Origin: an uncultured Hyphomicrobiales bacterium
Lineage (GTDB): Bacteria; Pseudomonadota; Alphaproteobacteria; Rhizobiales; Xanthobacteraceae
NCBI GenBank assembly: GCA_903885555.1
Contig: CAISIV010000018.1
Location: 49,049 to 113,048 of the forward strand
Direction of reading: 5' to 3'
Length of the DNA stretch: 64,000 bases
Below the pieces are notes generated by a model that was not told where the DNA came from, searched no databases, and worked only from the letters and a program-made list of their open reading frames with translations. Numbering within the stretch: position 1 is the first letter of the stretch; every line of letters starts with the position of its first letter. A program made the translations under genes and the position numbers. This document shows positions 43,562 through 64,000 of this stretch, in pieces.

Positions 43562-43708
43562 CGCCCTGCCCACGCGCGATGCTGCAGAGCGGCAAAAGAC
43601 AACCATTCATTGACAATGCCGCACCCTCAATGGGAGGCTCAAAGAAAAAGGACGCCGGCCTCGCACAGCCGAAGGGTCCTTCAACAAACAAAAGATCGGG
43701 GAGCCCAA

Positions 43709-44710
43709 GTGAACAAACAAACCTTCAGGACAATTGCGTCCGTTTTGATAGCGGGTCTAGCGCTTGCAACAAGCGCCAGCGCGCAGGACACCAAGCACTA
43801 TCGCTTCGCGCACGATCAGCAGCTCAACTCCGGCTACAGCATCGCTTACGACATCTTTTCCGCGAAGCTGAAGGAGTTGAGCGGCGGCAAGATGCTGGTC
43901 GACCAGTTTCCCGGCGCTCAACTCGGCCAGGAGCCGCAGCTTCTGCAACTGGTGAAGGCGGGCGATCTCGACTTCGCCATCGTCTCTTCGGCCAACACCG
44001 CGACCATCTCGCCCCAAGCCGGTGTGATGTCGCTGCACTTTCTGTTCCGCGGCTCCGACCACATGGTCAAGGCGCTCGGCGACGAGAAGGTGTTTGAAGC
44101 CATCCGCGACATGATCGATCAAACGACGCAGGGCATCCACGTGATCGGTCTCGGCACGCAAGGCCTGCGCAACATGTACAGCAAGAAAGAGATCCGCAAG
44201 ATCGAGGACATCAAAGGCCTCAAGATCCGCGTGCAGGCAACCGCGACCGAAGACGCGACTTTCGCAGCCTACGGTTCGCAGACCGTCCATATGCCGTTCG
44301 GCAGCGTCTACACCTCGCTGCAGACCGGCGTCGTCGATGTCGGCGAGAATTCGGTCAACGTCTACCTGATCAACAAGCATTACGAGCCCGCGCCGGTGCT
44401 CAATATGACCGAACACGAAGCTAACAACGCCATTCTCTGGATCAGCGACAAGCTCTGGCAGAGCCTCAACGCCGATCAGAAGAAATGGGTTCTGGCCGCC
44501 GGCAAGGACGTCAGCACGCAGGAGCCGAAGAAAGCCTTCGCGCTCGAAGACGCGGCCGCCGCCAAGCTCAAATCGATCGGCGTCAAGATCGTGACTGATG
44601 TCGACAAGTCGGGCTTCCAAAAAATCTCTAACCCGATGCTCGACAAGCTCGCCAAGGAGCTCGGGCCGCACGCCGACAAGATCAAGAGCCTGATCGTCTC
44701 GATCAAGTAA
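43709..44710 (+). CDS. dctP: TRAP transporter solute receptor (DctP/TAXI-like DctP family)
   Basis: A 333-residue periplasmic receptor. GTG 43709 is chosen because GGGGAG lies about 5 bases upstream and the signal peptide (TIASVLIAGLALATSASA, then QD) begins there; an in-frame ATG 99 bases earlier has no leader. The DctP pattern includes LSGGKMLVDQFPGAQLGQEP near 47-66 and the ligand-binding Arg region IKGLKIRVQATATE near 168-181. The Arg in this segment normally salt-bridges the carboxylate of the ligand, so an organic acid is expected. A perfect hairpin terminator follows before the permease genes. Confidence 0.92.
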   Translation: MNKQTFRTIASVLIAGLALATSASAQDTKHYRFAHDQQLNSGYSIAYDIFSAKLKELSGGKMLVDQFPGAQLGQEPQLLQLVKAGDLDFAIVSSANTATISPQAGVMSLHFLFRGSDHMVKALGDEKVFEAIRDMIDQTTQGIHVIGLGTQGLRNMYSKKEIRKIEDIKGLKIRVQATATEDATFAAYGSQTVHMPFGSVYTSLQTGVVDVGENSVNVYLINKHYEPAPVLNMTEHEANNAILWISDKLWQSLNADQKKWVLAAGKDVSTQEPKKAFALEDAAAAKLKSIGVKIVTDVDKSGFQKISNPMLDKLAKELGPHADKIKSLIVSIK

Positions 44711-44729
44711 CGCCTTCTGGTGGTTAAAC

Positions 44730-44759
44730 GGAGAGGCCGGGAAACCGGCCTCTCCTTTT
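44730..44759 (+). terminator. Intrinsic terminator/attenuator between dctP and dctQ
   Basis: An 11-base perfect stem (GGAGAGGCCGG with CCGGCCTCTCC), GAAA tetraloop and TTTT immediately after. It lies between the receptor gene and the permease genes of the same transporter, so it probably ends most transcripts after dctP and lets a minority read through. Confidence 0.85.
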
Positions 44760-44774
44760 CGACGGAATGACAGT

Positions 44775-45353
44775 ATGAGTGTCGCCGACCAGCTGGTGCT
44801 GCCGCGCCAGCGTCATTTGAAATGGAAAGCCCTCGACCCGCTCGAGATGATCCTGATGATCGTCTGCGGCCTGACACTGTTCGGGTTTTCGGTTTCGGTG
44901 TGCTGCGACATCATCACCCGGCAACTCGGTTCCCCCTGGCTGTGGCTGCAGGAAGTCACCTCGACGCTGTTCATCTACGGCATCTTCATCGGCGCCTCGG
45001 TGGCGACCCGGCGTAACGACCATCTCTACCTCACGGCGCTTGCCGAGGCCCTGCATGGCCCCGCGCGCACCGCGGCGGAAATCGTCATTCGGCTTGTCGT
45101 GCTCGCCGTCGCGATCTGCCTGATCTATTTCGGCTACATCAATTTCCTTCGCGGCTTCGGCAGCTTCCGCCTGCCGTCCAACACGCCGATTGCCTCGCTC
45201 TATGCGGCAATCCCGCTCTGTGGCGTGCTGATCGCGCTGTTCACAATCGAGCAAATCGTCAACGGCTGGCGCAACGGTTTCGACCACCCCGAGCCGGAAG
45301 CACCGGAACTGACGACCGCCTTCGGCGCCACCCGGCCGGGAGAGCCGACATGA
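44775..45353 (+). CDS. dctQ: TRAP transporter small permease (DctQ)
   Basis: A 192-residue integral membrane protein with four hydrophobic helices (about 28-50, 60-80, 100-122 and 138-158). The DctQ family pattern around WLQEVTSTLFIYGIFIGASV near residues 57-76 and ATRRNDHLYLTAL near 77-89 is present. ATG 44775 follows the terminator by 15 bases; only a weak CGGA precedes it. It overlaps dctM by 4 bases. Confidence 0.9.
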   Translation: MSVADQLVLPRQRHLKWKALDPLEMILMIVCGLTLFGFSVSVCCDIITRQLGSPWLWLQEVTSTLFIYGIFIGASVATRRNDHLYLTALAEALHGPARTAAEIVIRLVVLAVAICLIYFGYINFLRGFGSFRLPSNTPIASLYAAIPLCGVLIALFTIEQIVNGWRNGFDHPEPEAPELTTAFGATRPGEPT

Positions 45354-46687
45354 GCTCGCCGGTCATTCTCGGGCTGATGACATTCTGCTTCCTGTCTTTC
45401 GGCTATCTCGGCGTACCGGTGCCCTTCGCCTTGCTGGCCGGCGTCTTCGTCGGCGCGCTGCTCGCGGACGTCTCGCTCGCGGCCATCATCCAGAAGATGT
45501 TCGACGGCGTCGACAACGAGGCGCTGCTGGCGATCCCGTTCTTCCTGCTGGTCGGCGAACTGATGAGTTCGTCCAATGTCGTGATCCGCGTCGCCAATCT
45601 GGCGCTGGCACTGGTCGGACATATTCGCGGCGGCCTCAGTCAGGTTGTCACTGTCTTCAGCATGATGTTTTCGGAAATGTCGGGGTCGACCACAGCCGAC
45701 GTCGCCGTCATCAGCCGCGCCTTGAGCGGGCCGATGAAGAGAGAAGGCTACAAAGGGCCTTTCATCGCCGCCATCATCGCCGCCGCCTCGACCATCGCCG
45801 CTTTGGTGCCGCCGAGCATAACCGCCGTCGTCTACGGCGCGGTCGGCAACGTATCGATCGCGGGTCTGTTCATGGCCGGCGTGGTGCCGGGCCTCATGAT
45901 CGGCTTCGGCCTGATGATCTACTGCTATTTCTTCGGGCCGGTCGGCGCACGGCGGCCCCGCGCATCGTTTTTCATGGTCGCACACGCCGCCAAGGACGCC
46001 GTGCTGCCGCTGATGATCCCGATCATTCTGCTCGGCGGCATTCTGAGTGGCTGGTTCACACCGACCGAAGCCGGCGTCGTCGCGGCCGCGTGGATTTTGC
46101 TGGTCATCATCCCGGCGCTGAACCCGCAGCACATCTGGAGATTGCCCTATGATTTCTGTCTGGCCGGGCTGATCTTCTCCCTGCCGCTCATCACCATCGG
46201 CGCCGCCAATGCCTTCGGCTGGATGCTCGCCTATCTGCGCGGCGCCAGCGTCATCGCCGACTGGATCACGGCCATTGCGGGCACCGATCCGCATCTCATC
46301 ATGCTCTTGATGGTGCTGCTGTTCACCATCATCGGCGACTTCATCGAGCCGGTGCCGACCATCATCATCTTCATGCCGCTGGTGAATGCGCTGACGCAGA
46401 TCGGCGACATCAATCCGGTGCACATGGGTGTCGTGCTGATCGCCACGCTTGCGTTCGGGCTGATCACGCCGCCCTACGGGCTCGTTCTGCTGATGGCGTC
46501 TAAATTCGTCGGCGTGAGGTTCTCGCAAGCCTTGCGCGCGGCGTTGCCGATCTATGTCGTGTTCCTGGTCACGATCACGTTCTGCATCTATTTCCCGAAG
46601 GTCGTGCTCTGGCTGCCGAAACAGGTCATTCCAACAGCTGTCGGCTGCTTCCAGAACCCGAGCGGCACCGGCTATATCTGTCCTTGA
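45350..46687 (+). CDS. dctM: TRAP transporter large permease (DctM)
   Basis: A 445-residue, roughly 12-helix permease that uses the sodium or proton gradient to carry ligand handed over by DctP. The conserved DctM segments AIPFFLLVGELMSSSNVVIR near 61-80, EMSGSTTADVAVISRALSGP near 109-128 and LVPPSITAVVYGAVGNVSIA near 152-171 (PPS motif) are present. It overlaps dctQ by 4 bases. With dctP and dctQ the TRAP system is complete. Confidence 0.93.
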   Translation: MSSPVILGLMTFCFLSFGYLGVPVPFALLAGVFVGALLADVSLAAIIQKMFDGVDNEALLAIPFFLLVGELMSSSNVVIRVANLALALVGHIRGGLSQVVTVFSMMFSEMSGSTTADVAVISRALSGPMKREGYKGPFIAAIIAAASTIAALVPPSITAVVYGAVGNVSIAGLFMAGVVPGLMIGFGLMIYCYFFGPVGARRPRASFFMVAHAAKDAVLPLMIPIILLGGILSGWFTPTEAGVVAAAWILLVIIPALNPQHIWRLPYDFCLAGLIFSLPLITIGAANAFGWMLAYLRGASVIADWITAIAGTDPHLIMLLMVLLFTIIGDFIEPVPTIIIFMPLVNALTQIGDINPVHMGVVLIATLAFGLITPPYGLVLLMASKFVGVRFSQALRAALPIYVVFLVTITFCIYFPKVVLWLPKQVIPTAVGCFQNPSGTGYICP

Positions 46688-46714
46688 GGCGCAGCGTTCA
46701 CGTCAGGAATTGCA

Positions 46715-47551
46715 ATGGTACAAGATAAGAGCCTGCCGCGACTCAAGGCGCCACCGGGGGCCTGCGACACGCATATGCACATCTACGACTCGCGTTATCC
46801 GAAGGCGGCAACCGCCAAGATCGATCCACCCGATGCCTCGCTGACCGATTATCTCAAAGCGCGCGCCAGGCTCGGCATCGACCGCACCGTGGTGGTGCAA
46901 CCTTCCGTGTACGGCAAGGACAATAGCTGCCTGCTCGACGTCATGGCCGCCATTGGGCCGAGCGCGCGGGGTGTCGCCGTGGTCGACCACACCGTTTCCG
47001 ACGCGGAGCTGGAGCGGCTGACAAAGCTCGGCATTCGCGGCATCCGGTTCTTCATGCTGGCCGGCGCGCCGTTGCCACTGGGCATCCTGGAGACGATGGC
47101 GGCGCGGATCGCGACATTCGGTTGGCATGTGCAGTTTCAGACCGACGGCCGGGTGCTGGGCGACCTTGAGCCGATGCTGCAGCGGTTGCCCACGACCTTG
47201 ACCATCGATCACGTCGGTAAATTTCTCGAACCGGTCGAGCCGGACCATCCGGGCTTCCGCGCGTTGCTGCGTCTGCTGGACAACGGCCGCACCTGGATCA
47301 AGCTGGCGGCGCCCTACGAGACATCAAAGCTCGGCCCGCCCTATTACGACGACGTCGGCAAGCTCGCGAAGCTTCTGGTGAAGGCCGCGCCGGAACGCAC
47401 GATCTGGGCGAGCAACTGGCCACATCCGATGGCGGGCGAACGAACGCCGCAGGACGCCTGGATGCTCGACATGCTGCTCGACTGGGTGCCGGACGAAGCG
47501 ACGCGCCACAAGGTGCTGGTCGACAACCCCGCGCGGCTCTACGGGTTTTAG
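46715..47551 (+). CDS. Amidohydrolase family protein (2-pyrone-4,6-dicarboxylate lactonase-like)
   Basis: A 278-residue amidohydrolase-2 protein. Metal-site HMH in CDTHMHIYDSRYPK near residues 17-30, His in LTIDHVGKFL near 165-174 and the terminal motif IWASNWPHPM near 229-238, all as in LigI-like lactonases that hydrolyse 2-pyrone-4,6-dicarboxylate in lignin-derived aromatic breakdown. AGGA lies 7 bases before the ATG. It follows dctM by 27 bases, so the TRAP system may import its substrate or a precursor. Its stop overlaps that of the convergent MarR gene by 4 bases. Confidence 0.87.
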   Translation: MVQDKSLPRLKAPPGACDTHMHIYDSRYPKAATAKIDPPDASLTDYLKARARLGIDRTVVVQPSVYGKDNSCLLDVMAAIGPSARGVAVVDHTVSDAELERLTKLGIRGIRFFMLAGAPLPLGILETMAARIATFGWHVQFQTDGRVLGDLEPMLQRLPTTLTIDHVGKFLEPVEPDHPGFRALLRLLDNGRTWIKLAAPYETSKLGPPYYDDVGKLAKLLVKAAPERTIWASNWPHPMAGERTPQDAWMLDMLLDWVPDEATRHKVLVDNPARLYGF

Positions 47552-52957: not shown

Positions 52958-53002
52958 GCATGAGCCTTTCCGAAAACCGGTATCCACTTTTCGGGCTTAT
53001 GC
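52958..53002. repeat. Rhizobiales-type palindromic repeat overlapping the SDR stop codon
   Basis: An imperfect inverted repeat with GCATGAGCC and GGCTTATGC ends and CGAAAA / TTTTCG inner arms around CCGGTATCC. It looks like a degenerate copy of the short GCATGATC...CCGGTTTTCCGAAAA repeat widespread in Bradyrhizobium-type genomes (from memory). It covers the last codon and stop of the SDR gene, and could form its 3' hairpin. Confidence 0.6.
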
Positions 53003-53815
53003 GGTCGGCCTGTCACGGAAGCGGTCCATCAGCGCCTTGTCCTGTCCGCCGTCGACTTCGATCATGGTGCCGTTGACCATTTCCATCAGCGGCGACGCCA
53101 GCATGACAACGAGGTTGGCGACCTCCTCGACTTCGGCGATGCGGCCCATCGGGATCGAGGCCGGCGCCAGTTTGTCGGCCTGTTCGCGCGGGATTTTCAT
53201 GTCGCGCGCCATGGCGTCGACGAGGCCCGCCCAGCGCTCGGTGCGCACCGGGCCCGGATTGACCGCGACGAAGGAGATGTTGTCGCGGCCATATTGGCCA
53301 GCCAGCGACAGCGTCAGGTTCTGACCGGCGGCGTTGGCCGCACCGGGGCAGATTTCCCAATAGGACGGTTTCACGCCGTCATTGCCGATGAGGTTCACGA
53401 CACGGCCGCCGCCCTGCTTCACCATTAGCGGCAGCACGTAGCGCAGGCAGCGCACGTAGCCCATGAACTTGAGCTGCAGCCCCTTTTCCCAGTCGTCTTC
53501 GGTCAGATGCTCGATCACGCCGCCGGCGGCGGAGCCCGCATTGTTGACCATGATGTCAACGCGGCCGAGCGCCTTGGCGCCCTGCTCGATGAAATTCTTC
53601 GCGTCCGCGTCCTTGCGCAGATCACAGGCGATCGGGACGATCTTGCGGCCGGTCGCGGCGGCGATTTCCTTGGCCGCGGCTTCGAGCGGCTCCATGCGCC
53701 GCGCGCAGATCGCGACATCGACGCCTTCCTTGGCGAGCGCGAGCGCGATGCCCTTGCCGATGCCTTCGCTGCCGCCGGTGACGAGCGCGGTTTTGCCCTT
53801 GAGCTTGAGATCCAT
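52997..53815 (-). CDS. SDR-family protein with degenerate active site
   Basis: A 272-residue Rossmann protein of the SDR fold: cofactor motif TGGSEGIG near residues 13-20, NNAG near 90-93, and the conserved NPGPVRTERW near 187-196. However, at the place of the catalytic Ser-Tyr-Lys triad the protein reads NLIGNDGVKPSYWEICPGAA near 139-158, with no YxxxK and no serine after the strand, so normal SDR chemistry looks impossible. Either it uses another mechanism or it is a binding/regulatory protein. GGAGG lies 7 bases before ATG 53815. It follows the alpha/beta hydrolase by 13 bases in one operon. Confidence 0.85.
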   Translation of the reverse strand: MDLKLKGKTALVTGGSEGIGKGIALALAKEGVDVAICARRMEPLEAAAKEIAAATGRKIVPIACDLRKDADAKNFIEQGAKALGRVDIMVNNAGSAAGGVIEHLTEDDWEKGLQLKFMGYVRCLRYVLPLMVKQGGGRVVNLIGNDGVKPSYWEICPGAANAAGQNLTLSLAGQYGRDNISFVAVNPGPVRTERWAGLVDAMARDMKIPREQADKLAPASIPMGRIAEVEEVANLVVMLASPLMEMVNGTMIEVDGGQDKALMDRFRDRPTA

Positions 53816-53828
53816 TGCAAATCCTCCG

Positions 53829-54707
53829 TTACGATTTTGAAGCGGCGCGGTGCGACATCCAACGGCCGGCTTCGGCGTTGGCAAACAGATCAGCGAGCGC
53901 GGCATTGAATGCCGCCGGCTCCTCGCTGGTGATGGTGTGGCCGGAACGCGGAATGACCAGAAGGCCGGCGGTCGGCGCGGTGCGCTTGAGGAAGATGCTG
54001 GCGTCGAGGCACCAACCGTCTTCGTCGCCGACGATGATCAAGAGCGGCGGGGCAAATTTCTTCAGGTCGGCTTCCATGTCCCACAATGTCGGCCGTTTGG
54101 CCTGCAAATGCAGCATGGTGAGCGCGTGGCCGGTCGCCGAATGCTCGCTCAGCATCTTGGCGAACTCGGCAAAGCCGCGTGGATCCTTGTTTTTGTGGGT
54201 CTGGCGCGTGGCGCCGTCGGCATAGATCGGCGCGGTGACTTCGATGCCCTTTTCGGCAAACATCTTGCCGGTCTGGCGCGATTGCTCGCGGCCTTCCTCG
54301 ACCAGTTTGGGATCGGCGCTGGAGCCGTAGCCGCAGCTCGCAGCCGTGACCGAAATGCAGCGTTTGGCGTGATGAATGCCGACATGCAGCGCGGTGGCCG
54401 CGCCCATCGAGTGGCCGACCACATGGGCTTTGTCGACTTTCAGCGCGTCCATGACCGCGATGACGTCGTCCCGGGCGATATCCTGGCTGTATTTGTTGCC
54501 ATCCTCGGGGATGTCGGACGGCGGATAACCGCGCTGGCTGTAGGTGATGCAGCGATGGGAGCGCGAGAAATGCCGCATCTGCGGCTCCCACGTGCGGTAG
54601 TCGCCGGCATATTCATGCACGAAGACGACCGGCGTCCCTTGGCCGTCTTTTTGGCCCGCCTCTTCGTAGTACAGACGGGTGCCATCCCGCGCGGCAATAT
54701 GCGGCAT
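53829..54707 (-). CDS. Alpha/beta hydrolase
   Basis: A 292-residue cytoplasmic serine hydrolase. Nucleophile elbow GHSMG with Ser100, acid in IIVGDEDGWC near 234-243 and His in IPRSGHTI near 260-267 give a complete triad. Ring-cleavage (C-C) hydrolases, esterases and haloperoxidase-like proteins share this form. ATG 54707 (MPHIAARDGTRLYYEE) is preferred over an upstream in-frame codon. First gene of a two-gene unit with the SDR-like protein; diverges from the SsuABC-type importer and has an operator-like motif 30 bases upstream. Confidence 0.87.
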   Translation of the reverse strand: MPHIAARDGTRLYYEEAGQKDGQGTPVVFVHEYAGDYRTWEPQMRHFSRSHRCITYSQRGYPPSDIPEDGNKYSQDIARDDVIAVMDALKVDKAHVVGHSMGAATALHVGIHHAKRCISVTAASCGYGSSADPKLVEEGREQSRQTGKMFAEKGIEVTAPIYADGATRQTHKNKDPRGFAEFAKMLSEHSATGHALTMLHLQAKRPTLWDMEADLKKFAPPLLIIVGDEDGWCLDASIFLKRTAPTAGLLVIPRSGHTITSEEPAAFNAALADLFANAEAGRWMSHRAASKS

Positions 54708-54878: not shown

Positions 54879-55862
54879 ATGTCTAATCTGTCTCGGCGCG
54901 GTTTGGCCGCGTTCGCCGCCGCTCTCATCCTTGCCGCCGCTGGTGTTTTCTCAGCCGCGCAGGCGCAGCAGAAGCCCGTCATCAAGGTCTCCAGCCTGAC
55001 GCTGCCGGTGTTCAACCCGCTGGTCTGGAACATCATGAAGGCGCGCGGCTTCGACGCCAAGAACGGCTTCGAGCTCGATATTCACCCTTATCCTTCGATC
55101 TCGGCGTTCTACGCGGCCTTCGCCACCGGCGAGACCGACGTGCTGATCGGTGGCCCGACGATTTTCCAGAAGCTCTATCAGGAAGGCGTGCCGCTGCGGA
55201 TCATCGGCACCGGCTTCACGCTCGCCGACCTCGTGATCTTCGCCAAGGATCCGGCGATCAAGACCTTCGCCGACCTCAAGGGCAAGCAGCTCGCCGCCGA
55301 CATGGGTGGCTCGCAGTTCCAGGTGGTGAAGATCTACGCCGCCGCCAAGGGACTCGACCTGACCAAGGACATCACCATCGTCAATGCCAACTTCGCGGTG
55401 GCGCGCGCCCAGCTTGAGGCCAGCCGCGTCGATGCCGCTTTGGTGATCGAGCCGCTCGCCAGCATCATCGCCAAGCAGAACCCGGACTGGAAGGTGATCT
55501 TCAACGGCGCCGAAGGCTGGCGGGAAATCGCCGGCGTCGATGGCTGGGAAATCGTGCCGGCGATGCGCACCGACGCCATCGCAAAAAATCCGAACGGTCC
55601 GAAGATGCTGCTGGCGGCATTGCAGGACGTCGCCGACTTCATGCGCAACGAAACCGCCGCCGCCGACAAGATCGCCAACGAGACGCTCAAGCTGCCGCCC
55701 GGCATTCTGACCGCCGCGGTCGAGAGCAAGCGGCTGAGCATGATCGTGAAACCGGCCTGGGATCCCGCCACCAAGAAGTCCATCACCGACATGATGGAAC
55801 GCGCGGTGAAGGCCGGGTTCTACGAGAAGATGCCCGACGACAAGATCATCTATGCGCCATAG
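54879..55862 (+). CDS. ABC transporter substrate-binding protein, NMT1/SsuA-TauA-like
   Basis: A 327-residue periplasmic receptor of the nitrate/sulfonate/taurine group. Signal peptide 1-30 (AAFAAALILAAAGVFSAAQA, with an N-terminal SRR that might also suit Tat). Mature part begins KPVIKVSSLTLPVFNPLVWN, with FATGETDVLIGGPTIFQKL near 84-102 and ADLKGKQLAADMGGS near 131-145 as in NMT1-like folds. Related proteins bind sulfonates, thiamine precursors, phthalate or other aromatic acids. First gene of a complete three-gene importer. Confidence 0.9.
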   Translation: MSNLSRRGLAAFAAALILAAAGVFSAAQAQQKPVIKVSSLTLPVFNPLVWNIMKARGFDAKNGFELDIHPYPSISAFYAAFATGETDVLIGGPTIFQKLYQEGVPLRIIGTGFTLADLVIFAKDPAIKTFADLKGKQLAADMGGSQFQVVKIYAAAKGLDLTKDITIVNANFAVARAQLEASRVDAALVIEPLASIIAKQNPDWKVIFNGAEGWREIAGVDGWEIVPAMRTDAIAKNPNGPKMLLAALQDVADFMRNETAAADKIANETLKLPPGILTAAVESKRLSMIVKPAWDPATKKSITDMMERAVKAGFYEKMPDDKIIYAP

Positions 55863-55884
55863 ACCGCTGATTGATCGCGTTTAA

Positions 55885-56664
55885 ATGACCGCATCGAACG
55901 ACGAGTTGCGAGAGCCTGTCCGGTCTTTCACCTTTCCGCGGCATACTCTCGTTTCTCTGCTGGTCTTCTGCGTTTTCTGGGAAGTGTTGTCGCATCTCGC
56001 GCCGACGCTCGGGATTCCGCCGTTCGCGATTCCCAGCCTGCTGAAGATCGCCAAGAGCATCGCCACCATCACCTGGATCGATATCGTCGTGACGCTAGCC
56101 CGTGTCATCGGCGCGCTGATCGCGTCCTTCGTGCTCGGCCTCGCACTGGCGATGGCGATGTATCGCTCAGAAAGCCTCGAGAAATACGTCTATCCGATCA
56201 TCCGCCTGTTCATGGCGGTGCCGGTGGTGTCGTGGATTCTGTTCGCGGTGCTGTGGTTTCCCGGCGTCGAATTCCGCATCGGCTTCGTGCTGGTGGTGGT
56301 GTGCGGACCGGTGTTTCTGGTCGATACGCTCGATGCCATGAGGAGTGTGCCCAGAGAACTTCGTCACATGATGCAGTCGTTCCGGCCGACCTCGTTACAG
56401 TTCTTCATCAAATTGATGCTGCCAGCGATCGTGCCGACCATCTTCACCAGCTGGAAAGTCAACATCAGCCTCGCCATCCGCGTCGTCACCATCGCCGAAC
56501 TGGTCGGCGCGGTGACCGGTATCGGTCATCAATTGTCGGTGGCGCAGGAATTGTTCTCGGTCGCCGACGTGTTTGCCTGGACCATCGTGCTGGTCGCCCT
56601 GCTCTTCATGATGGAAGCCATCGTTTCCCGCGTCGAACACCGGCTGCTGCGGTGGCGCGCATGA
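55885..56664 (+). CDS. ABC transporter permease, SsuC/TauC-like
   Basis: A 259-residue permease with six hydrophobic segments. The binding-protein-dependent transport motif region is RSVPRELRHMMQSFRPTSLQ near 153-172, coupling to the ATPase. It follows the receptor by 22 bases and overlaps the ATPase gene by 4 bases. Confidence 0.9.
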   Translation: MTASNDELREPVRSFTFPRHTLVSLLVFCVFWEVLSHLAPTLGIPPFAIPSLLKIAKSIATITWIDIVVTLARVIGALIASFVLGLALAMAMYRSESLEKYVYPIIRLFMAVPVVSWILFAVLWFPGVEFRIGFVLVVVCGPVFLVDTLDAMRSVPRELRHMMQSFRPTSLQFFIKLMLPAIVPTIFTSWKVNISLAIRVVTIAELVGAVTGIGHQLSVAQELFSVADVFAWTIVLVALLFMMEAIVSRVEHRLLRWRA

Positions 56665-57458
56665 CCGCCATCGTGAAAAACGGTCCGCCGCCGATCGAAG
56701 TGCGCGGCCTGCGCAAGCTGTTTTGGCAGGCCACGACCGGCCAGGCCGTCGTGGCCATCGACCGGCTCGATCTGACCATCGCGCCCAAGGAAATCATCGC
56801 CATTGTAGGTCAGACCGGCTGCGGCAAGTCCACTTTCTTCGACATGATGATCGGGCTGGAGCCGCCGACCGAAGGAACCTTGCGCATCGGCGACAAAAGC
56901 CCGCACGGCGACTTCGATTATTTCCGCGGCAAGATCGCCACCGTGTTCCAGCAGGACCGTTTGTTGCCGTGGCGCTCGGCACTCGACAACGCGAAGCTGC
57001 CGCTGGAACTGATCGGTCTGCCCGAGGCGGAGCAGCGCGAACGCGCCATGACGTGGCTCAAGCGGCTCGGCCTCGGTAATTTCATCAACGCCTATCCGCA
57101 CGAACTGTCCGGCGGCATGCGCCAGCGCGTCGCCATCGCGCGCGCCTTCGTGGTGCAGCCCGACATTCTGCTGGCCGACGAGGCCTTCGGCCATCTCGAC
57201 GAAGTGACGGCGGCCGAATTGCGCGAGACCTTCCTGGCGCTGGCACGCGAATGCGGCTCGACCGCGATTTTAATTACGCATCAGCTCGAGGAAGCCATCG
57301 GCGTCGGCGACCGCGTCGTCGTGTTCGGCAAATCGGCGAAACTGCTCGCCGATATCCGCGTCGCGGCGTGGCCCAAGGAAAAATACGCCGTGCTGCGCGA
57401 AGCGATCCAGTTCACGCTGCAGAACAACGCAGCAGATCCGCGGTTGGCGCAGGATTAA
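56661..57458 (+). CDS. ABC transporter ATP-binding protein, SsuB/TauB-like
   Basis: A 265-residue ATPase. Walker A GQTGCGKST near residues 50-58, signature LSGGMRQRVAIARAF near 151-165 and Walker B ILLADEAFGHLDEVT near 172-186; the SGGMRQR form is typical of the nitrate/taurine group. ATG 56661 overlaps the permease stop; the longer in-frame extension upstream is shadow sequence in the permease gene. Closes the importer operon. Confidence 0.92.
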   Translation: MTAIVKNGPPPIEVRGLRKLFWQATTGQAVVAIDRLDLTIAPKEIIAIVGQTGCGKSTFFDMMIGLEPPTEGTLRIGDKSPHGDFDYFRGKIATVFQQDRLLPWRSALDNAKLPLELIGLPEAEQRERAMTWLKRLGLGNFINAYPHELSGGMRQRVAIARAFVVQPDILLADEAFGHLDEVTAAELRETFLALARECGSTAILITHQLEEAIGVGDRVVVFGKSAKLLADIRVAAWPKEKYAVLREAIQFTLQNNAADPRLAQD

Positions 57459-58022: not shown

Positions 58023-58871
58023 CTAACCGTGTAAAATCGCCTTCGCGGCGTCGCCCATGGCTTCGACCGACTCGCCGGCGTCGAGGAAACACACAATACG
58101 GCACGGACAGCCCTCGAGACCTTCGTAGCGCCACGGGAAGGCGCCGATCAGGCAGCGCTTGCCAAGCATCAACTCGATATCGCCGCCGATATTCTCGGCA
58201 TGCAACAGGCCTTCCTGGAAGGCCCAGTTGTGGAACGGGAACACGTCGGCCGACACCTGACGGCCGGACTTTTTATGCGTGTAATTGAAGGTGCCGAAGA
58301 ACTCGGCCGGCGTCTTGCCGTGCTTCTTGGTGAACTCCTCGGCGAGATCGGGCCGCATGTAGCGGATCGAGGTGTTCATGGCGTGGTCGCAGGACCCCGT
58401 GTCCATGCCCCACCACTTGATCTTCTTTTTCAACATCCAGTGCAGCGTGTCGAGGTTCGGGCCGGGGTGGTAGCAGAAGTACTTCACCAGATCCTGCTGG
58501 GACTGGCCTTCGTAATACTTGTGCCAGCCAGTGTGCAAAATAAGGATATCGCCTTCGCGAATGTCGGCACCCGTCGACTCGATCATCTCGGGCGTGATCA
58601 CCGCCCAGTCGTGCATGTGCTTGGAAATGTCGACGACGACGCCGCGGTTCATCAGATAATCCAGCGGCAGATGCGCCATGTCGCCCTTGCGGTTGTCGGT
58701 GGCGTGCATCGCCCCGTCGAAATGCGTGCCGACATGCAGCGCGGTGTCGATGCGTTGCGCCACTATCCGCACGGTCTGCAGATTCTGTGCGTAATACATC
58801 TTGTTACCGGCGTAGCCGACCCAGCCGGGCGTGTGCACGTTCATGACATGGGTGAGATCGACGATTTTCAT
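58023..58871 (-). CDS. Cyclase-family metal-dependent hydrolase (kynurenine formamidase-like, PF04199)
   Basis: A 282-residue protein with the family metal motif HVGTHFDGAMH at residues 46-56 (His46, His50, Asp52, His56). Later histidines in KWWGMDTGSCDHAMN and FPFHNWAFQEG regions complete the fold. Members hydrolyse N-formylkynurenine, isatin or cyclic amides/lactones. It ends convergently with the lipoprotein gene and has the TauE-like permease upstream (33 bases) on the same strand, so they form a likely two-gene unit. Confidence 0.88.
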   Translation of the reverse strand: MKIVDLTHVMNVHTPGWVGYAGNKMYYAQNLQTVRIVAQRIDTALHVGTHFDGAMHATDNRKGDMAHLPLDYLMNRGVVVDISKHMHDWAVITPEMIESTGADIREGDILILHTGWHKYYEGQSQQDLVKYFCYHPGPNLDTLHWMLKKKIKWWGMDTGSCDHAMNTSIRYMRPDLAEEFTKKHGKTPAEFFGTFNYTHKKSGRQVSADVFPFHNWAFQEGLLHAENIGGDIELMLGKRCLIGAFPWRYEGLEGCPCRIVCFLDAGESVEAMGDAAKAILHG

Positions 58872-58904: not shown

Positions 58905-59645
58905 TCACAGCAGGCCGCGCAGCGCCAGATGCACGCCAAGCGCGAGCAGGCCGAGGAAAAAGCACAGGCGGAACGTCTCGGCCTTGACCTTGTTGCGGAT
59001 GATCTGCCCGAACCACATGCCGATTAGCGCGACGCCGAGTGCCAGAAGCGCCGGCCAGGCCACTTCGGTGTGGAACTGGCCCTGATAGGCCAACGCCAGA
59101 GCGAGCGTGATGGTCGACACCGTAAACGACAGGCCGAGCGCCTGCACCATGCGGTTGCGGTCGAATTCGAGCGCTGTGATGTAAGGCACGCCGGGAATGA
59201 CAAACACGCCGGTCGCCACCGTCGCCACGCCGGTGAGAAATCCGACGATCAAACCGAGCCAGGTTTCGGACTGCGGCGGCACCTTGAACTGCACCTTCAC
59301 CAGGCCGAGCGCGGCGTAGGCGATCAGCGCAACGCCGAGCCAGATGCCCGCCTGCCCGCTGTTAGGCGGCAGTGTCACGGCACCAATCAAGGTGCCGACG
59401 CAGACGCCGATGAGCATCGGCCACAGCCGCCTCGTCAGCAGCAGCACGTCGCCGCCGGTGACGAGTTGCCAGATATTGGTGACCAGCGATGGCACCACCA
59501 GAATGGCGGCGGCCTGCGACGGCGACATCACGAGGCCGAGCAGGCCGATGGCGACCGTCGGTAGGCCGAGGCCGATGACGCCTTTGACGAAGCCCGCCAG
59601 CAGAAAGGCTGCGGCGGTCACGCTGAGAATGAGAAAGGAGTTCAC
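58905..59645 (-). CDS. TauE/SafE-family membrane permease
   Basis: A 246-residue permease with about eight hydrophobic helices. The family begins with AAFLLAGFVKGVIGLGLPTV near residues 10-29, and the second repeat has GLIVGFLTGVATVATGVFVI near 138-157. GTG 59645 is the start: AAGGA lies 6 bases upstream, and upstream in-frame ATGs would add a non-hydrophobic leader. TauE/SafE proteins move organic or sulfur-containing anions (sulfoacetate, sulfite). Upstream of the cyclase gene in one transcript. Confidence 0.87.
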   Translation of the reverse strand: MNSFLILSVTAAAFLLAGFVKGVIGLGLPTVAIGLLGLVMSPSQAAAILVVPSLVTNIWQLVTGGDVLLLTRRLWPMLIGVCVGTLIGAVTLPPNSGQAGIWLGVALIAYAALGLVKVQFKVPPQSETWLGLIVGFLTGVATVATGVFVIPGVPYITALEFDRNRMVQALGLSFTVSTITLALALAYQGQFHTEVAWPALLALGVALIGMWFGQIIRNKVKAETFRLCFFLGLLALGVHLALRGLL

Positions 59646-59742
59646 GTCGCGTCCTTTGCGGGGACCGCGACCATGCGGCAAGCCGCGCGCCGCTTCAATG
59701 CGGATTGGCGCAACCCTGACTCCAGAAATTGCGAAGGCAATC

Positions 59743-60234
59743 TCAGCGTTCGAGATTCTGGATGACCTTTTCCAGCAGGCGGCGAAGCTCAAGCGTCTCG
59801 GCCTCGGTCATGCCGCGCGTCGCCTTGCGGTTTATTCTTGCCGCGTGCGGCAAAAGTTGCGGCTTCAGGCGGCGGCCCTGCGCCGTCAGCGTGATGTTGA
59901 TCTTGCGGCGGTCCTCGGCGTTGCGTTCGCGAATGATCAGCCCCCGCCGCTCCATGCCTTCCAGCACGCCAGTCAAGGATGCCTTTTCAACCCGCATCCG
60001 CTCAGCCAGTTCGACCTGCGTCAGCCCCTCGATGTCCCACAGGATGCGCAGCACCGACCATTGCGCGGTGAGAATGCCGTGCGGCTCGAGCTCATCCGCC
60101 AGTGCCTTGACGGAAGCGCGGTGCGAATAGCGCGTCAGATAACCGACGCTAAGCGAATCCGCGCCGTCGTCCGGCACCGCGGACGATCTGGCGTCCCCCC
60201 CTGTTTTGGCAGGCTTTTTCGCATTCATCGGCAT
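59743..60234 (-). CDS. MarR-family transcriptional regulator, divergent from Rieske operon
   Basis: A 163-residue winged-helix regulator. The core spans about 35-160: ILWDIEGLTQVELAERMRVE near 79-98, GVLEGMERRGLIIRERNAED near 105-124 with the ERxxxxxDRR-type wing. ATG 60234 or 60228 are both possible; neither has a good Shine-Dalgarno sequence. A perfect 20-base palindrome (60258-60277) lies 23 bases upstream, in the promoter area shared with the divergent Rieske gene. It is thus very probably an autoregulated repressor of the Rieske-amidohydrolase operon. Confidence 0.88.
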   Translation of the reverse strand: MPMNAKKPAKTGGDARSSAVPDDGADSLSVGYLTRYSHRASVKALADELEPHGILTAQWSVLRILWDIEGLTQVELAERMRVEKASLTGVLEGMERRGLIIRERNAEDRRKINITLTAQGRRLKPQLLPHAARINRKATRGMTEAETLELRRLLEKVIQNLER

Positions 60235-60257
60235 CGGGCAAACCGCGATTGACTCTA

Positions 60258-60277
60258 ATCGTATGGAACCATACGAT
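60258..60277. promoter_or_regulatory. 20-base MarR-type operator palindrome
   Basis: ATCGTATGGAACCATACGAT: 9-base arms ATCGTATGG and CCATACGAT around a central AA. Length and symmetry match MarR operators and it sits between the divergent MarR (60234) and Rieske (60331) starts. Confidence 0.8.
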
Positions 60278-60330
60278 TTTGCCATGCTTGGCGCTACAGC
60301 CGCCGGCTCATCAATTCGGACCTGAACGCC

Positions 60331-60696
60331 ATGCCGGAAATTCACGTCGCCAAGCTTGCGCAATTCGCCGACGGCGAACGCCGCATCGTTGCCCATGAGG
60401 GCAAGGAAATCGGCGTGTTCCACTGGCAGGGGAAATTCTACGCGTACGAGAACCTATGTGTTCATCAGGGCGGCCCCGCCTGCGAGGGCGTCATGATGCA
60501 CAAGGTCGAGGACGTCATCGCGCCCGACAAGACCTGGAGCGGGCAGAAGTTCTCCAAGGACGAAATCCACTTCGTCTGTCCCTGGCACGGCTACGAATAC
60601 GATCTGAAAACCGGCGAATGCGCGGCCGACCGCAAGCTGAAGCTCAAGAGCTTCGAGGTCGTGAAACGCGGGGAGGATGTCTATGTCGTTGCATGA
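60331..60696 (+). CDS. Rieske [2Fe-2S] ferredoxin-like protein
   Basis: A 121-residue soluble Rieske domain. Cluster ligands Cys43-His45 (CVHQGGPACEG) and Cys83-His86 (CPWHGYEYDLKTGEC) are all present. There is an insertion of about 25 residues between the two motifs (VMMHKVEDVIAPDKTWSGQK). This size suits an electron-transfer ferredoxin of a Rieske oxygenase or a nitrite-reductase-small-subunit-like protein, but no oxygenase alpha subunit or reductase is adjacent; instead an unknown 81-residue protein and an amidohydrolase follow. The next gene starts inside it (14-base overlap). Confidence 0.9.
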   Translation: MPEIHVAKLAQFADGERRIVAHEGKEIGVFHWQGKFYAYENLCVHQGGPACEGVMMHKVEDVIAPDKTWSGQKFSKDEIHFVCPWHGYEYDLKTGECAADRKLKLKSFEVVKRGEDVYVVA

Positions 60697-60928
60697 TGAG
60701 ATCGCGCAGGCCGAGTTGCACTTAAGCGACGCTGAAATTCAATCCATGCTGGCAACGGCCGTGAAGATGTTTGCCGGACGCGCGGCCGAACGGGAAGGCG
60801 CCCTGCCCGCCTTCGGGCCGCAAGACGCCAACGCCACCGAAGTGATGGTCGCGGTCACCGCGATGATGAAGGCCGTCAACGTGCAGGTGTTCGAGCTCGG
60901 CATGTGGCAAGCCTGGAGCGGGAAATAA
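60683..60928 (+). CDS. Unknown 81-residue protein between Rieske and amidohydrolase genes
   Basis: A small, mostly helical, acidic cytoplasmic protein. ATG 60683 is preferred because GGGGAGG lies 6 bases upstream; ATG 60677 would leave no spacing. Visible parts: DEIAQAELHLSDAEIQSML at the N-terminus, a central Met/Ala helix, a conserved-looking PQDANATEVMVAVTAMMKAV near 46-65, and a Trp-rich end GMWQAWSGK. No signal peptide, membrane segment or metal motif. It overlaps the Rieske gene by 14 bases and ends 3 bases before the amidohydrolase, so all three are probably made together and may form a complex. I do not recognise the family. Confidence 0.78.
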   Translation: MSLHDEIAQAELHLSDAEIQSMLATAVKMFAGRAAEREGALPAFGPQDANATEVMVAVTAMMKAVNVQVFELGMWQAWSGK

Positions 60929-60931
60929 CCA

Positions 60932-62122
60932 ATGGAACTGCCCCTCTCCGACTTCCGCCGCATGGCGGTCGAGGAATTCGATACCTCAAAGCTGCTGGCG
61001 CACGCCGCCAAGCAGGCAGCCGATCGCAACTACAAGGGCTTCCCGATCGTCGACGTTGATTCGCATCACTACGAAAGCGAAGCGATCGACGAGATTCTCG
61101 AATACATGGACGATCCGGTGCTGCAACAACTGGCGCGCAGCGCGCGACAGGCCAGCGCCAAGAGCGTCGGCGTACTGCCGTCGGGCGTCGGCTATCAGGA
61201 CATGGGCGGCCGCGTCATGCGCTATTCGACGCGCGGCATGGAGAAGACTCCCGCCGGGACCCAACGCGACATCTCGCTGGCGCGGCGCTGGATGGACGCC
61301 ATCGGCATCAATATCGCGGTGATGTTTCCGACGCCGATGCTGCAGCTCGGCCTGCATCCGCAGGTCGAGGTCGAGGTCGCCCTGGCGCGCGCCTATAACC
61401 GCTGGCTCTGCGAACGCGTGCTGGCGCACGAGCAGCGCATCCGCTCGATGCTGTACCTGCCGTTCAACGACTCCGAAGCGTCGTACAAGATGGTGCAGGA
61501 ATTCGGCGGCAAGCCGGGCGTGGTCGGCTTCATGGTGACGTCGGCGCGCTACCGGCCAGTGCATCACAATTCCTACATGAAGACCTACGCGCTGATGGAA
61601 GAGATGAACCTGCCGCTGGCGTTCCACGCCGGCTACAACTGGGAAGACCGCACCGTCGGCCTGATGAACCAGTTCATCTCGGTGCACGCGCTCGGCTTCG
61701 TGTTCTACAACATGGTTCATCTCGCCAACTGGGTGATGAACGGCATTCCGGAGCGGTTCCCCAAGCTGAAAGTGCTGTGGGTCGAAAGCGGGCTCGCCTG
61801 GGTTCCCTTCATGATGCAGCGCTTCGACAACGAATACATGATGCGCTCGTCGGAAGCCCCCGCGCTCAAAAAGATGCCGAGCGACTACATGCGCGACATG
61901 TTCTACTCGTCGCAGCCGATGGAAATGACCGACATGGCGATGCTGGAGCAGACCTTTCGCATGCTCAAAGCCGATACTCAGCTGCTTTATTCATCGGATT
62001 ATCCGCACTGGGACTTCGACCTGCCCTCGACGATCTACGACCTGCCGTTCCTCGATGAACAGGCCAAGCGCAATATCCTTGGCGGTAATGCGATGCGCGT
62101 GTTTAATATGACCCTGCCATAA
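60932..62122 (+). CDS. Amidohydrolase family protein (amidohydrolase-2, ACMSD-like)
   Basis: A 396-residue TIM-barrel metal enzyme. Metal site: D-x-H-x-x-E type VDVDSHHYESE near residues 40-50, His in LAFHAGYNW near 229-237, His in FYNMVHLANW near 258-267, and terminal YSSDYPHWDFD near 352-362. The N-terminal 35 residues are an extra helical segment compared with ACMSD. It follows the 81-residue protein by 3 bases. Expected to hydrolyse or decarboxylate an organic acid; coupling to a Rieske protein is unusual. Confidence 0.88.
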   Translation: MELPLSDFRRMAVEEFDTSKLLAHAAKQAADRNYKGFPIVDVDSHHYESEAIDEILEYMDDPVLQQLARSARQASAKSVGVLPSGVGYQDMGGRVMRYSTRGMEKTPAGTQRDISLARRWMDAIGINIAVMFPTPMLQLGLHPQVEVEVALARAYNRWLCERVLAHEQRIRSMLYLPFNDSEASYKMVQEFGGKPGVVGFMVTSARYRPVHHNSYMKTYALMEEMNLPLAFHAGYNWEDRTVGLMNQFISVHALGFVFYNMVHLANWVMNGIPERFPKLKVLWVESGLAWVPFMMQRFDNEYMMRSSEAPALKKMPSDYMRDMFYSSQPMEMTDMAMLEQTFRMLKADTQLLYSSDYPHWDFDLPSTIYDLPFLDEQAKRNILGGNAMRVFNMTLP

Positions 62123-62156: not shown

Positions 62157-63134
62157 GTGCGTATCGTTCTTGCTCAGATTCTTGCTCTGATTTCGGCGCT
62201 TTTGTTGGCTTCGGGCGCGTTTGCGCAAGGCGCGGCGGACTACCCCAATCGGCCAATTCGGCTGGTCGTCTGCGTGCCGCCCGGCGGCGGCGTCGACACC
62301 GTGGCGCGCATTGTCGCAGAAGGCCTGCAGCGCAAACTCGGCCAGCCGGTGATCGTGGAAAACCGCGGCGGCGTTGCCGGCAATCTCGGCACCGAGGTCG
62401 TGTTCAACGCAGAACCCGACGGCTACACGTTGCTGGCGGCGCAGCCGGCGCCGCTCACCATCAATCCGCTGCTATACAAGAAATTGAACTTCGATCCGAC
62501 GCAGCTCGTACCGGTCACGATCATGACCACGGTCGACAATGTCCTGCTGGTGCGGAAGGATTTCCCCGCACAGACGCCGCAGGAATTCATCCAATACGTC
62601 AAGAACAGTCCCGGCGCGGTCAACTACGCCTCGCAGGGTATCGGCACCACCTCGCATCTGAGTGGCGCCTTGTTCGAGACCATGACCGGCTCCAAGCTGG
62701 TGCATGTGCCGTACAAAGGCACGTCGCCGGCGCTCAACGACATCATCGCCAGCCACGTCGACATCATTTTCATGGAACTGGCCTCGGCGATCAAACTGCA
62801 CGAATCCGGCTTTGCCCGTATTCTCGCGGTGGCGACCACCAAGCGCATTGCGAGCCTGCCGAATATTCCGACGCTCGATGAGTCCGGTGTGAAAGGCTTT
62901 GAGTCCAGCACCTGGAACGCCATCGCGGCGCCGCCGAAGACGCCGGACGCGATCGTGCAAAAGCTCAACAAGGCGATCGTCGAGGTGCTCAACAGCCCCG
63001 AAGCGGCCGAGCATTTCACCAAGCTCAATTTGCGTGCTTCGAGAAGTACGCCGGAAGAAGCCGCCGCTTTCATCAAGCACGAGACCGAAGTCTGGGGCGG
63101 CGTCATCAAGGCCGCCGGGGTTCAGGCGAACTAG
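62157..63134 (+). CDS. Bug/TctC-family periplasmic solute-binding receptor, second copy
   Basis: A 325-residue receptor with signal peptide 1-23 (LAQILALISALLLASGAFAQ), then DYPNRPIRLVVCVPPGGGVD near 27-46 and NRGGVAGNLGTEVVF near 70-84. GTG 62157 follows GGGAGGG at good spacing. It is 34 bases after the amidohydrolase and probably cotranscribed, so it likely delivers that pathway's carboxylate substrate. TctA/TctB permease genes are again absent. Confidence 0.9.
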   Translation: MRIVLAQILALISALLLASGAFAQGAADYPNRPIRLVVCVPPGGGVDTVARIVAEGLQRKLGQPVIVENRGGVAGNLGTEVVFNAEPDGYTLLAAQPAPLTINPLLYKKLNFDPTQLVPVTIMTTVDNVLLVRKDFPAQTPQEFIQYVKNSPGAVNYASQGIGTTSHLSGALFETMTGSKLVHVPYKGTSPALNDIIASHVDIIFMELASAIKLHESGFARILAVATTKRIASLPNIPTLDESGVKGFESSTWNAIAAPPKTPDAIVQKLNKAIVEVLNSPEAAEHFTKLNLRASRSTPEEAAAFIKHETEVWGGVIKAAGVQAN

Positions 63135-63254: not shown

Positions 63255-63692
63255 TTAAGACGGCGCCATGAACTTCCGGAGCGCGGCGAGCCACACCGCA
63301 AATCCCTTGTTCTCGAACTGATCGATCATCCGCTCGTAGTCCGGCGTGGCGCAATCGAAGGTCGCCCACCACTCGACGAAAGCCTTGCCGCTATCGACTA
63401 CCGGCGTGATGCGGATCGTCGCCGCGTAATTTCGCACCGGAAACGGCGGCTCGCTGGCGAAAGCGTAACTGTAGGAACGATCGATGTCGGAATGCGCCAG
63501 CAGGATTTGCCGGAGCGTTTTGTCGCCGACGATGACGCGGCGGACGCTGCCGACCTGATCGCCTTTGCGGCCGTCTTCGATCGTGGTCTCGGAAACAACG
63601 CCGGCCCAGGCGTAATGATCGAACGGCCGGATCACCGACCAGACTTTGCCGGCGGCATGATCGAGCACGGTGCTGTAATAGGCCTTGGCCAT
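63255..63692 (-). CDS. SRPBCC-family protein (polyketide cyclase/START-like)
   Basis: A 145-residue protein of the START/Bet v1-like fold that encloses hydrophobic ligands. It begins MAKAYYSTVLDHAAGKVWSV and has IRPFDHYAWAG near 21-31, EDGRKGDQVGSVRRV near 39-53 and ITPVVDSGKAFVEWWATFD near 99-117, typical of polyketide-cyclase-2 domains. ATG 63692 is chosen: the in-frame sequence upstream to 63899 contains a tandem repeat and no family similarity. The role may be binding or transport of an aromatic or lipid molecule; it is unknown. Confidence 0.85.
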   Translation of the reverse strand: MAKAYYSTVLDHAAGKVWSVIRPFDHYAWAGVVSETTIEDGRKGDQVGSVRRVIVGDKTLRQILLAHSDIDRSYSYAFASEPPFPVRNYAATIRITPVVDSGKAFVEWWATFDCATPDYERMIDQFENKGFAVWLAALRKFMAPS

Positions 63693-64000
63693 TGTTGATG
63701 TCCCGCATGTGAGGAGGTTGCCGCTGTGTGGGCGCACCGCGCGGTTCCAGCCACCCGATTCCTGCAGACAAGCATCGTCAAGACATGCGTCATCAAGACA
63801 TGCGTCATCGCCCGTATTCTTTACCGGCCCCGGGCAGGCCGTATTCCAAATTCGCCTTTCCGCCTTCGCCCTTTGGGCTTCGGCGGACGAGCCTTCCATC
63901 GCCCTCCAAGAACGAGGGCGCGCGGAACGCCGGGGCCACGACGACCCCGCAGCCTCGTGAGAGAGTTGAGTTTGTTCTCACGAGCATAGTCACCACGAAG
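63693..64000. other. Right-edge non-coding region with short tandem repeat and hairpin
   Basis: No supported gene. It contains three imperfect copies of a 15-base unit (GACATGCGTCATCAA type) at 63767-63810 and an imperfect 27-base palindrome at 63860-63886 (CCGCC...GGCGG ends around CCCTTTGGG). The region should include the promoter of the SRPBCC gene; the rest to base 64000 gave no recognisable RNA gene or open frame. Confidence 0.5.

Follow-up and report, generated by a model that had tools for sequence, protein, structure and literature searches.

A Rieske-coupled amidohydrolase, probably a dinuclear oxygenase, and its conserved small companion protein in an uncultured Hyphomicrobiales bacterium

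The window analyzed here, a 64,000-nucleotide stretch of a contig from an uncultured Hyphomicrobiales bacterium, contains three tightly coupled genes that raise the question of why a Rieske protein should be encoded together with an amidohydrolase. All three genes are on the + strand. The first encodes a 121-aa Rieske [2Fe-2S] ferredoxin (60331..60696), recognized by its PF00355 match (47.9 bits), its ligand spacing, and its conservation beside the amidohydrolase gene; the second encodes a small protein of 81 aa (60683..60928), which belongs to a conserved family with no Pfam model; and the third encodes a PF04909 (Amidohydro_2) 'amidohydrolase' of 396 aa (60932..62122; 75.1 bits versus a cut-off of 26.4). 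The Rieske gene overlaps the small gene by 14 nt, and the stop codon of the small gene (TAA, 60926-60928, + strand) lies 3 nt ahead of the amidohydrolase ATG at 60932, exactly the coupling described in the initial annotation of the locus. A Shine-Dalgarno-like GGGGAGG, read from the sequence, is located at 60670..60676 on the + strand, 6 nt before the ATG of the small gene at 60683. A 161-aa MarR-family regulator (59743..60228, - strand; PF01047, 63.2 bits) is encoded divergently from the triplet.

The initial annotation saw no oxygenase or reductase nearby and proposed that either the Rieske protein serves an oxygenase elsewhere or the three proteins form a redox-linked decarboxylase or hydrolase. 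We indeed found no reductase gene in the operon; however, an oxygenase is probably present in the form of the amidohydrolase. Our analysis points to an inducible multicomponent monooxygenase that is fed by the Rieske ferredoxin, has a dedicated small partner, and is repressed by the MarR regulator, and we estimate the probability of this reading as a whole at about 0.8.

Relation of the amidohydrolase to dinuclear oxygenases

The amidohydrolase-related dinuclear oxygenases (AROs) are a recently recognized class, of which few members have been studied and which can use Mn/Fe or Fe2. According to the main text of Liu et al. 2024 (PMC10811679), the class was itself found through small Rieske genes located beside PF04909 genes, and the idea of a separate oxygenase as the necessary partner of the Rieske protein was not supported.

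The closest PDB relatives of the window amidohydrolase were 8SM7 (E = 7e-40), 8SM6, which is SfbO (3e-35), 8SM9, and AibH2, and decarboxylases matched at 2e-10 or weaker. PtmU3 (PDB 6OMP), a diiron hydroxylase of the amidohydrolase superfamily that acts in the biosynthetic pathway of platensimycin, gave a weaker match (6e-12) and is more distant in sequence. The six putative metal ligands of the window protein (D43, H45, H232, E285, D356, and H359) and a second-sphere Asp (D361) align with those of the AROs and were invariant across all full-length relatives checked. The metal ligands of AibH2 are D25, H27, H211, E265, D337, and H340, and its second-sphere Asp, D342, is needed for activity (PMC7782822, PMC10401708); D25 and H27 fall outside the local alignment, and for the first ligand pair SfbO and 8SM7-8SM9 served as the reference. 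Since no metal ligand is missing from the protein when it is aligned with AibH2, SfbO, and 8SM7-8SM9, its initial description as a hydrolase or redox-linked decarboxylase was not upheld. The locus combines the PF04909 fold, the six ligands, and the second-sphere Asp with a same-strand small Rieske ferredoxin gene in the transcription unit, the features of an ARO that can be read from sequence. As judged from its sequence, the window amidohydrolase is very probably an oxygenase, namely a dinuclear (Fe2 or Mn/Fe) monooxygenase.

PF04909 proteins at three other loci (L094, L096, and L097) have the same six ligand letters with no Rieske gene detected nearby. Either they are AROs with distant donors or the ligand set is insufficient, and because of these three proteins we do not regard the ligand set alone as proof of oxygenase function.

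In a maximum-likelihood tree, the AROs accompanied by the small protein grouped into a single clade (support 100/100) that is distinct from both the characterized AROs and the Rieske-linked AROs without the small gene; the tree was rooted at its midpoint and has several long branches, so that its deeper relations are unsure, and AibH2 was represented by its locally aligned part only. SfbO, 8SM7, 8SM8, and 8SM9 have the same fold, six ligands, second-sphere Asp, and adjacent small Rieske ferredoxin as the window; however, their identity to the window protein is only 24-29%, and the window protein is in the separate clade. Furthermore, the window has a small third protein, whereas none is described for these four systems in the main text of PMC10811679.

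The AibH1H2-AibG-AibF system of Rhodococcus, a 2-aminoisobutyrate hydroxylase, resembles the window in combining an amidohydrolase-type hydroxylase, a Rieske ferredoxin, and a transporter in one operon; however, two amidohydrolases make up the AibH1H2 heterotetramer, and its operon includes a reductase gene (PMC7782822, PMC10401708), whereas the window has one oxygenase, the 81-aa protein, and no such reductase gene. AibH1H2 requires both AibG and AibF (PMC7782822); the AibF-like NADH reductase, although encoded in the aib operon, is outside the definition of the ARO class. At three related loci (L015 3607-5328, L018 8275-10723, and L021 8276-10727), two tandem amidohydrolase genes of the clade follow the small gene, and both proteins in L018 and L021 retain all ligands, in contrast to AibH1 with its mononuclear site.

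The small protein and its link to the oxygenase clade

Of 100 related genomes, 27 encode a relative of the 81-aa protein, and relatives were also detected on 24 contigs from other genomes. Because the small gene is conserved in dozens of loci and shows pairwise dN/dS values of 0.12-0.40 among close relatives, we regard it as a real coding gene, as the initial annotation had assumed. Neither of the two outcomes that were named there as refuting, a non-conserved triplet or a non-coding small gene, was seen: the Rieske, small, and amidohydrolase genes are kept together in all 24 loci on contigs of other genomes and in nearly all of the relatives fetched, and in our first locus set every locus with the small gene has adjoining Rieske and amidohydrolase genes. 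The gene order varies among Rieske-small-ARO, Rieske-ARO-small (L051 and L052), ARO-Rieske-small (L064-L066), and ARO-small-Rieske (L072, Aminobacter). Despite this reordering the linkage of the three genes is nearly always kept, the exception being L059, where the nearest amidohydrolase gene of the clade is about 6 kb away. An apparent lack of the small gene at L043 in a BLAST search was rejected when a profile search recovered it. On plasmids of Phaeobacter, Thioclava, Neorhizobium, and Aminobacter, the small gene is annotated as 'hypothetical protein' and lies between or beside the other two genes. A tblastn search of plasmids with the 81-aa protein at E 0.01 gave no match and was thus too insensitive, since its relatives do adjoin amidohydrolase genes on plasmids. 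With annotations of only 'amidohydrolase', 'Rieske protein', and 'hypothetical protein' for the three genes, probable catabolic oxygenases go unnoticed.

The distribution of the small protein follows that of the oxygenase clade. In a class sample of 385 alphaproteobacterial genomes, the ARO clade (defined here by 48% identity or more) was present in 17, and the small protein was present in the same 17 and absent from all six genomes with only distant ARO homologs. In a phylum sample of 398 genomes, both occurred in the same three genomes, the window's own included, and the small protein was absent from the ten with only distant homologs. As the two samples share the window's genome, the small protein was found in exactly 19 clade-carrying genomes; these counts are not independent, since the genomes are related, but the pattern is without exception.

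The family comprises about 65 non-redundant rows, mostly of 75-130 aa, and has a conserved C-terminal block, TAT-x-VM...AVN-x-x-x-FELGMWQAWSG. Searches with the small protein, singly and as a profile, gave no significant match in Pfam, NCBIfam, or PDB sequences, and a search of Pfam with 33 family members identified no family at a meaningful E-value; in particular, no homology to effectors of the MmoB/TmoD type was recognizable in Pfam (33 members) or with the PDB profile. An AlphaFold model contained four helices with low confidence (pLDDT 69, pTM 0.39), and we therefore claim no fold for the protein; the best Foldseek match of the model had an E-value of 2.3, which is meaningless at this pLDDT.

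These results suggest that the small protein is probably a subunit or effector of the oxygenase, and the genetic evidence makes binding to the oxygenase the most likely form of the association. We tentatively propose, at slightly less than even odds, that the AROs of this distinct alphaproteobacterial clade depend on an undescribed small helical family. Its members would serve as obligate subunits or effectors, gating either the transfer of electrons or the activation of O2 in an oxygenase of the amidohydrolase fold, and would have arisen separately from the classical diiron monooxygenase effectors. The strict co-occurrence with the ARO clade, the small size, and the helical prediction would fit equally well with a maturation factor, that is, a metal-loading or folding chaperone for the clade rather than a working subunit. 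We consider such a role rather unlikely: in the wider set of relatives, T52 and W75 never vary and L72 hardly does, with no conserved Cys/His cluster that would suggest metal handling, and characterized AROs, although of another clade, were metallated in Escherichia coli with added metal, according to the main text of PMC10811679.

The subunit or effector reading has an analogy in toluene 4-monooxygenase (TmoC/TmoD), which has the same general layout of a dinuclear hydroxylase, a Rieske ferredoxin, and a small third protein. The likeness is one of layout only, since the hydroxylase fold in systems of this type is unrelated to that of the window protein, and the small protein of the window has no Pfam match to effectors and an all-helical prediction of low confidence. 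Should the small protein turn out to be an effector, its role may help to explain the weak substrate binding of the characterized AROs (Km above 80 mM, with surrogate reductants), and the protein would be a convergent counterpart of the effectors that act in methane and toluene monooxygenases. The initial annotation had called the locus an undescribed system. This no longer holds for the pairing of Rieske and amidohydrolase genes, which was already known; however, it does hold, as far as the main texts of the ARO papers show, for this ARO clade and its obligate small partner, since the clade is separate from every characterized ARO compared and has an extra third component.

Electron supply and the Rieske proteins of the genome

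Both ligand pairs of the Rieske ferredoxin, C43-x-H45 and C83-x2-H86 (window 60457-60588), are present, in agreement with the initial annotation, and are located 37 residues apart. This distance is 36-38 residues within the clade and 32 in ferredoxins beside distant AROs (loci compared: L092-L095, L109, and L112); it is 16 both in the one Rieske oxygenase of the same genome, on contig C320, and in its bc1-type protein. The spacing of 36-38 residues suggests a ferredoxin type specialized for AROs and could be used as a search signature. An extra Cys, C51 in the window protein, is common to the clade ferredoxins. The window ferredoxin is the probable electron donor, with a role like that of AibG.

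A different account would make the amidohydrolase an ordinary mononuclear PF04909 hydrolase or nonoxidative decarboxylase and would have the Rieske protein feed an unrelated Rieske oxygenase elsewhere. The genome is 95% complete and gave no match to the PF00848 ring-hydroxylating catalytic domain. The genome does have one Rieske oxygenase-like protein, encoded on contig C320 (L109 517-1827), which was missed by the PF00848 model, and the statement that it has no Rieske oxygenase was dropped. The C320 protein is similar to oxygenases of the phthalate/vanillate type, and these usually receive their electrons directly from a reductase; this counts against the window ferredoxin serving the C320 protein, as does the difference in the Rieske loop between the two (37 versus 16 residues). 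PF04909 also includes decarboxylases, hydratases, and hydrolases, according to the main text of PMC10811679; however, the complete dinuclear ligand set and the persistence of the Rieske-amidohydrolase adjacency across Alphaproteobacteria in varied orders make this account improbable. It is hardly credible that the Rieske cluster tunes a reaction without oxygen in a redox-linked complex of the decarboxylase or hydrolase type, since the precedents for pairing Rieske and PF04909 proteins are oxygenations (PMC7782822, PMC10401708, and the main text of PMC10811679) and the ligand set agrees with oxygenating enzymes.

For the proposed monooxygenase, a candidate reductase is encoded on contig C257: a stand-alone PDR/VanB-type protein with Fer2, NAD-binding, and FAD-binding domains that is 44% identical to a reductase encoded near the Phaeobacter triplet, although it could equally serve the C320 Rieske oxygenase. 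An FAD protein encoded beside the Aminobacter triplet was rejected as a reductase because it is of the FAD_binding_3 aromatic hydroxylase type. In the proposed scheme, NADH would supply electrons to a reductase from another locus, which would hand them to the Rieske ferredoxin and, through it, to the oxygenase. The latter, a TIM-barrel protein, would coordinate a pair of metals (Fe2 or Mn/Fe) with D43, H45, H232, E285, D356, and H359 and would spend O2 and two electrons on the hydroxylation of a C-H bond. The 81-aa protein, predicted to be helical, would most likely use its conserved C-terminal segment FELGMWQAW to contact either the oxygenase or the complex of oxygenase and ferredoxin.

Regulation and neighboring genes

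Between the divergent MarR and Rieske genes is an inverted repeat, AATCGTATGG-AA-CCATACGATT (60257..60278), with 10-bp arms and a 2-nt center, which is a probable MarR operator. The initial annotation had described it as a perfect 20-base palindrome at 60258-60277; the repeat is real and slightly longer, with perfect arms, but its AA center is not self-complementary, and the perfect match is confined to the arms. The motif occurs only once in the 4.27-Mb genome, with up to 2 mismatches allowed. A promoter-like TTGACT-17-TACGAT (60249..60277, + strand) matches the consensus at 9 of 12 positions (expectation from shuffled sequence, 0.1), and its -10 box is covered by the right arm of the repeat. 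Divergent MarR homologs are encoded at loci L002, L004, L006, L012, L013, L035, and L044; similar sites are located 5' of the Rieske gene in L002, L004, L006, and L012 and, in weaker form, in L035, all five with divergent MarR genes. MarR-family regulators usually repress their targets until a small molecule releases them, and we infer the same for the window operon: MarR would cover the -10 box and repress the operon until released by an inducer, probably the organic acid that is imported or something formed from it. The divergent MarR gene with its own, genomically unique operator thus points to the inducible control that was originally suggested.

Several neighbors of the triplet recur in related loci. 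A gene for a TctC-type periplasmic binding protein (62157..63134, + strand; PF03401, 252 bits) begins 35 nt 3' of the oxygenase gene and is probably in the same operon; its cluster occurs in 8 related loci and is downstream of the ARO gene in at least 7. Beyond it, a Polyketide_cyc2 (SRPBCC-type) protein is encoded on the - strand (window 63255-63899). On the other side of the triplet are genes for a TauE/SafE-type membrane protein (58905..59657, - strand, start codon uncertain; PF01925, 104.6 bits; cluster in 9 loci), a PF04199 cyclase of the arylformamidase-like type (58023..58871, - strand; 107 bits; cluster in 6 loci), an ABC importer (54879..57458, + strand), and a short-chain dehydrogenase (SDR; 53000..53905, - strand; PF00106), which is kept in some of the genus loci, with a similar SDR cluster in 4 loci. 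The importer consists of an NMT1/SsuA-like binding protein (54879-55862), a permease (55885-56664), and an ATPase within the ORF ending at 57458; it was recognized by PF09084, PF00528, and ATPase motifs read from the sequence, and an equivalent importer is encoded near many relatives. In marine and Defluviicoccus relatives, the neighboring genes encode alpha-hydroxyacid oxidases, TPP enzymes, and MmgE/PrpD and PEP mutase-family enzymes. Together, the NMT1/SsuA-like and TctC importers, the TauE/SafE protein, the cyclase, the SDR, and the neighbors in relatives fit a catabolic route for an imported organic acid, with hydroxylation as its probable first step. The neighbors define the substrate no more closely than this, and a sulfonate would likewise be compatible with TauE and the SsuA-like importer. 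Farther upstream in the window (43610-47548), a complete TRAP transporter (DctP, DctQ, and DctM) is followed by another Amidohydro_2 gene. The Aminobacter triplet (L072 10615-15131) is located beside genes for a second amidohydrolase, an RraA-type protein, 4-carboxy-4-hydroxy-2-oxoadipate aldolase, and 4-hydroxybenzoate 3-monooxygenase, which suggests a role in aromatic acid catabolism at that locus.
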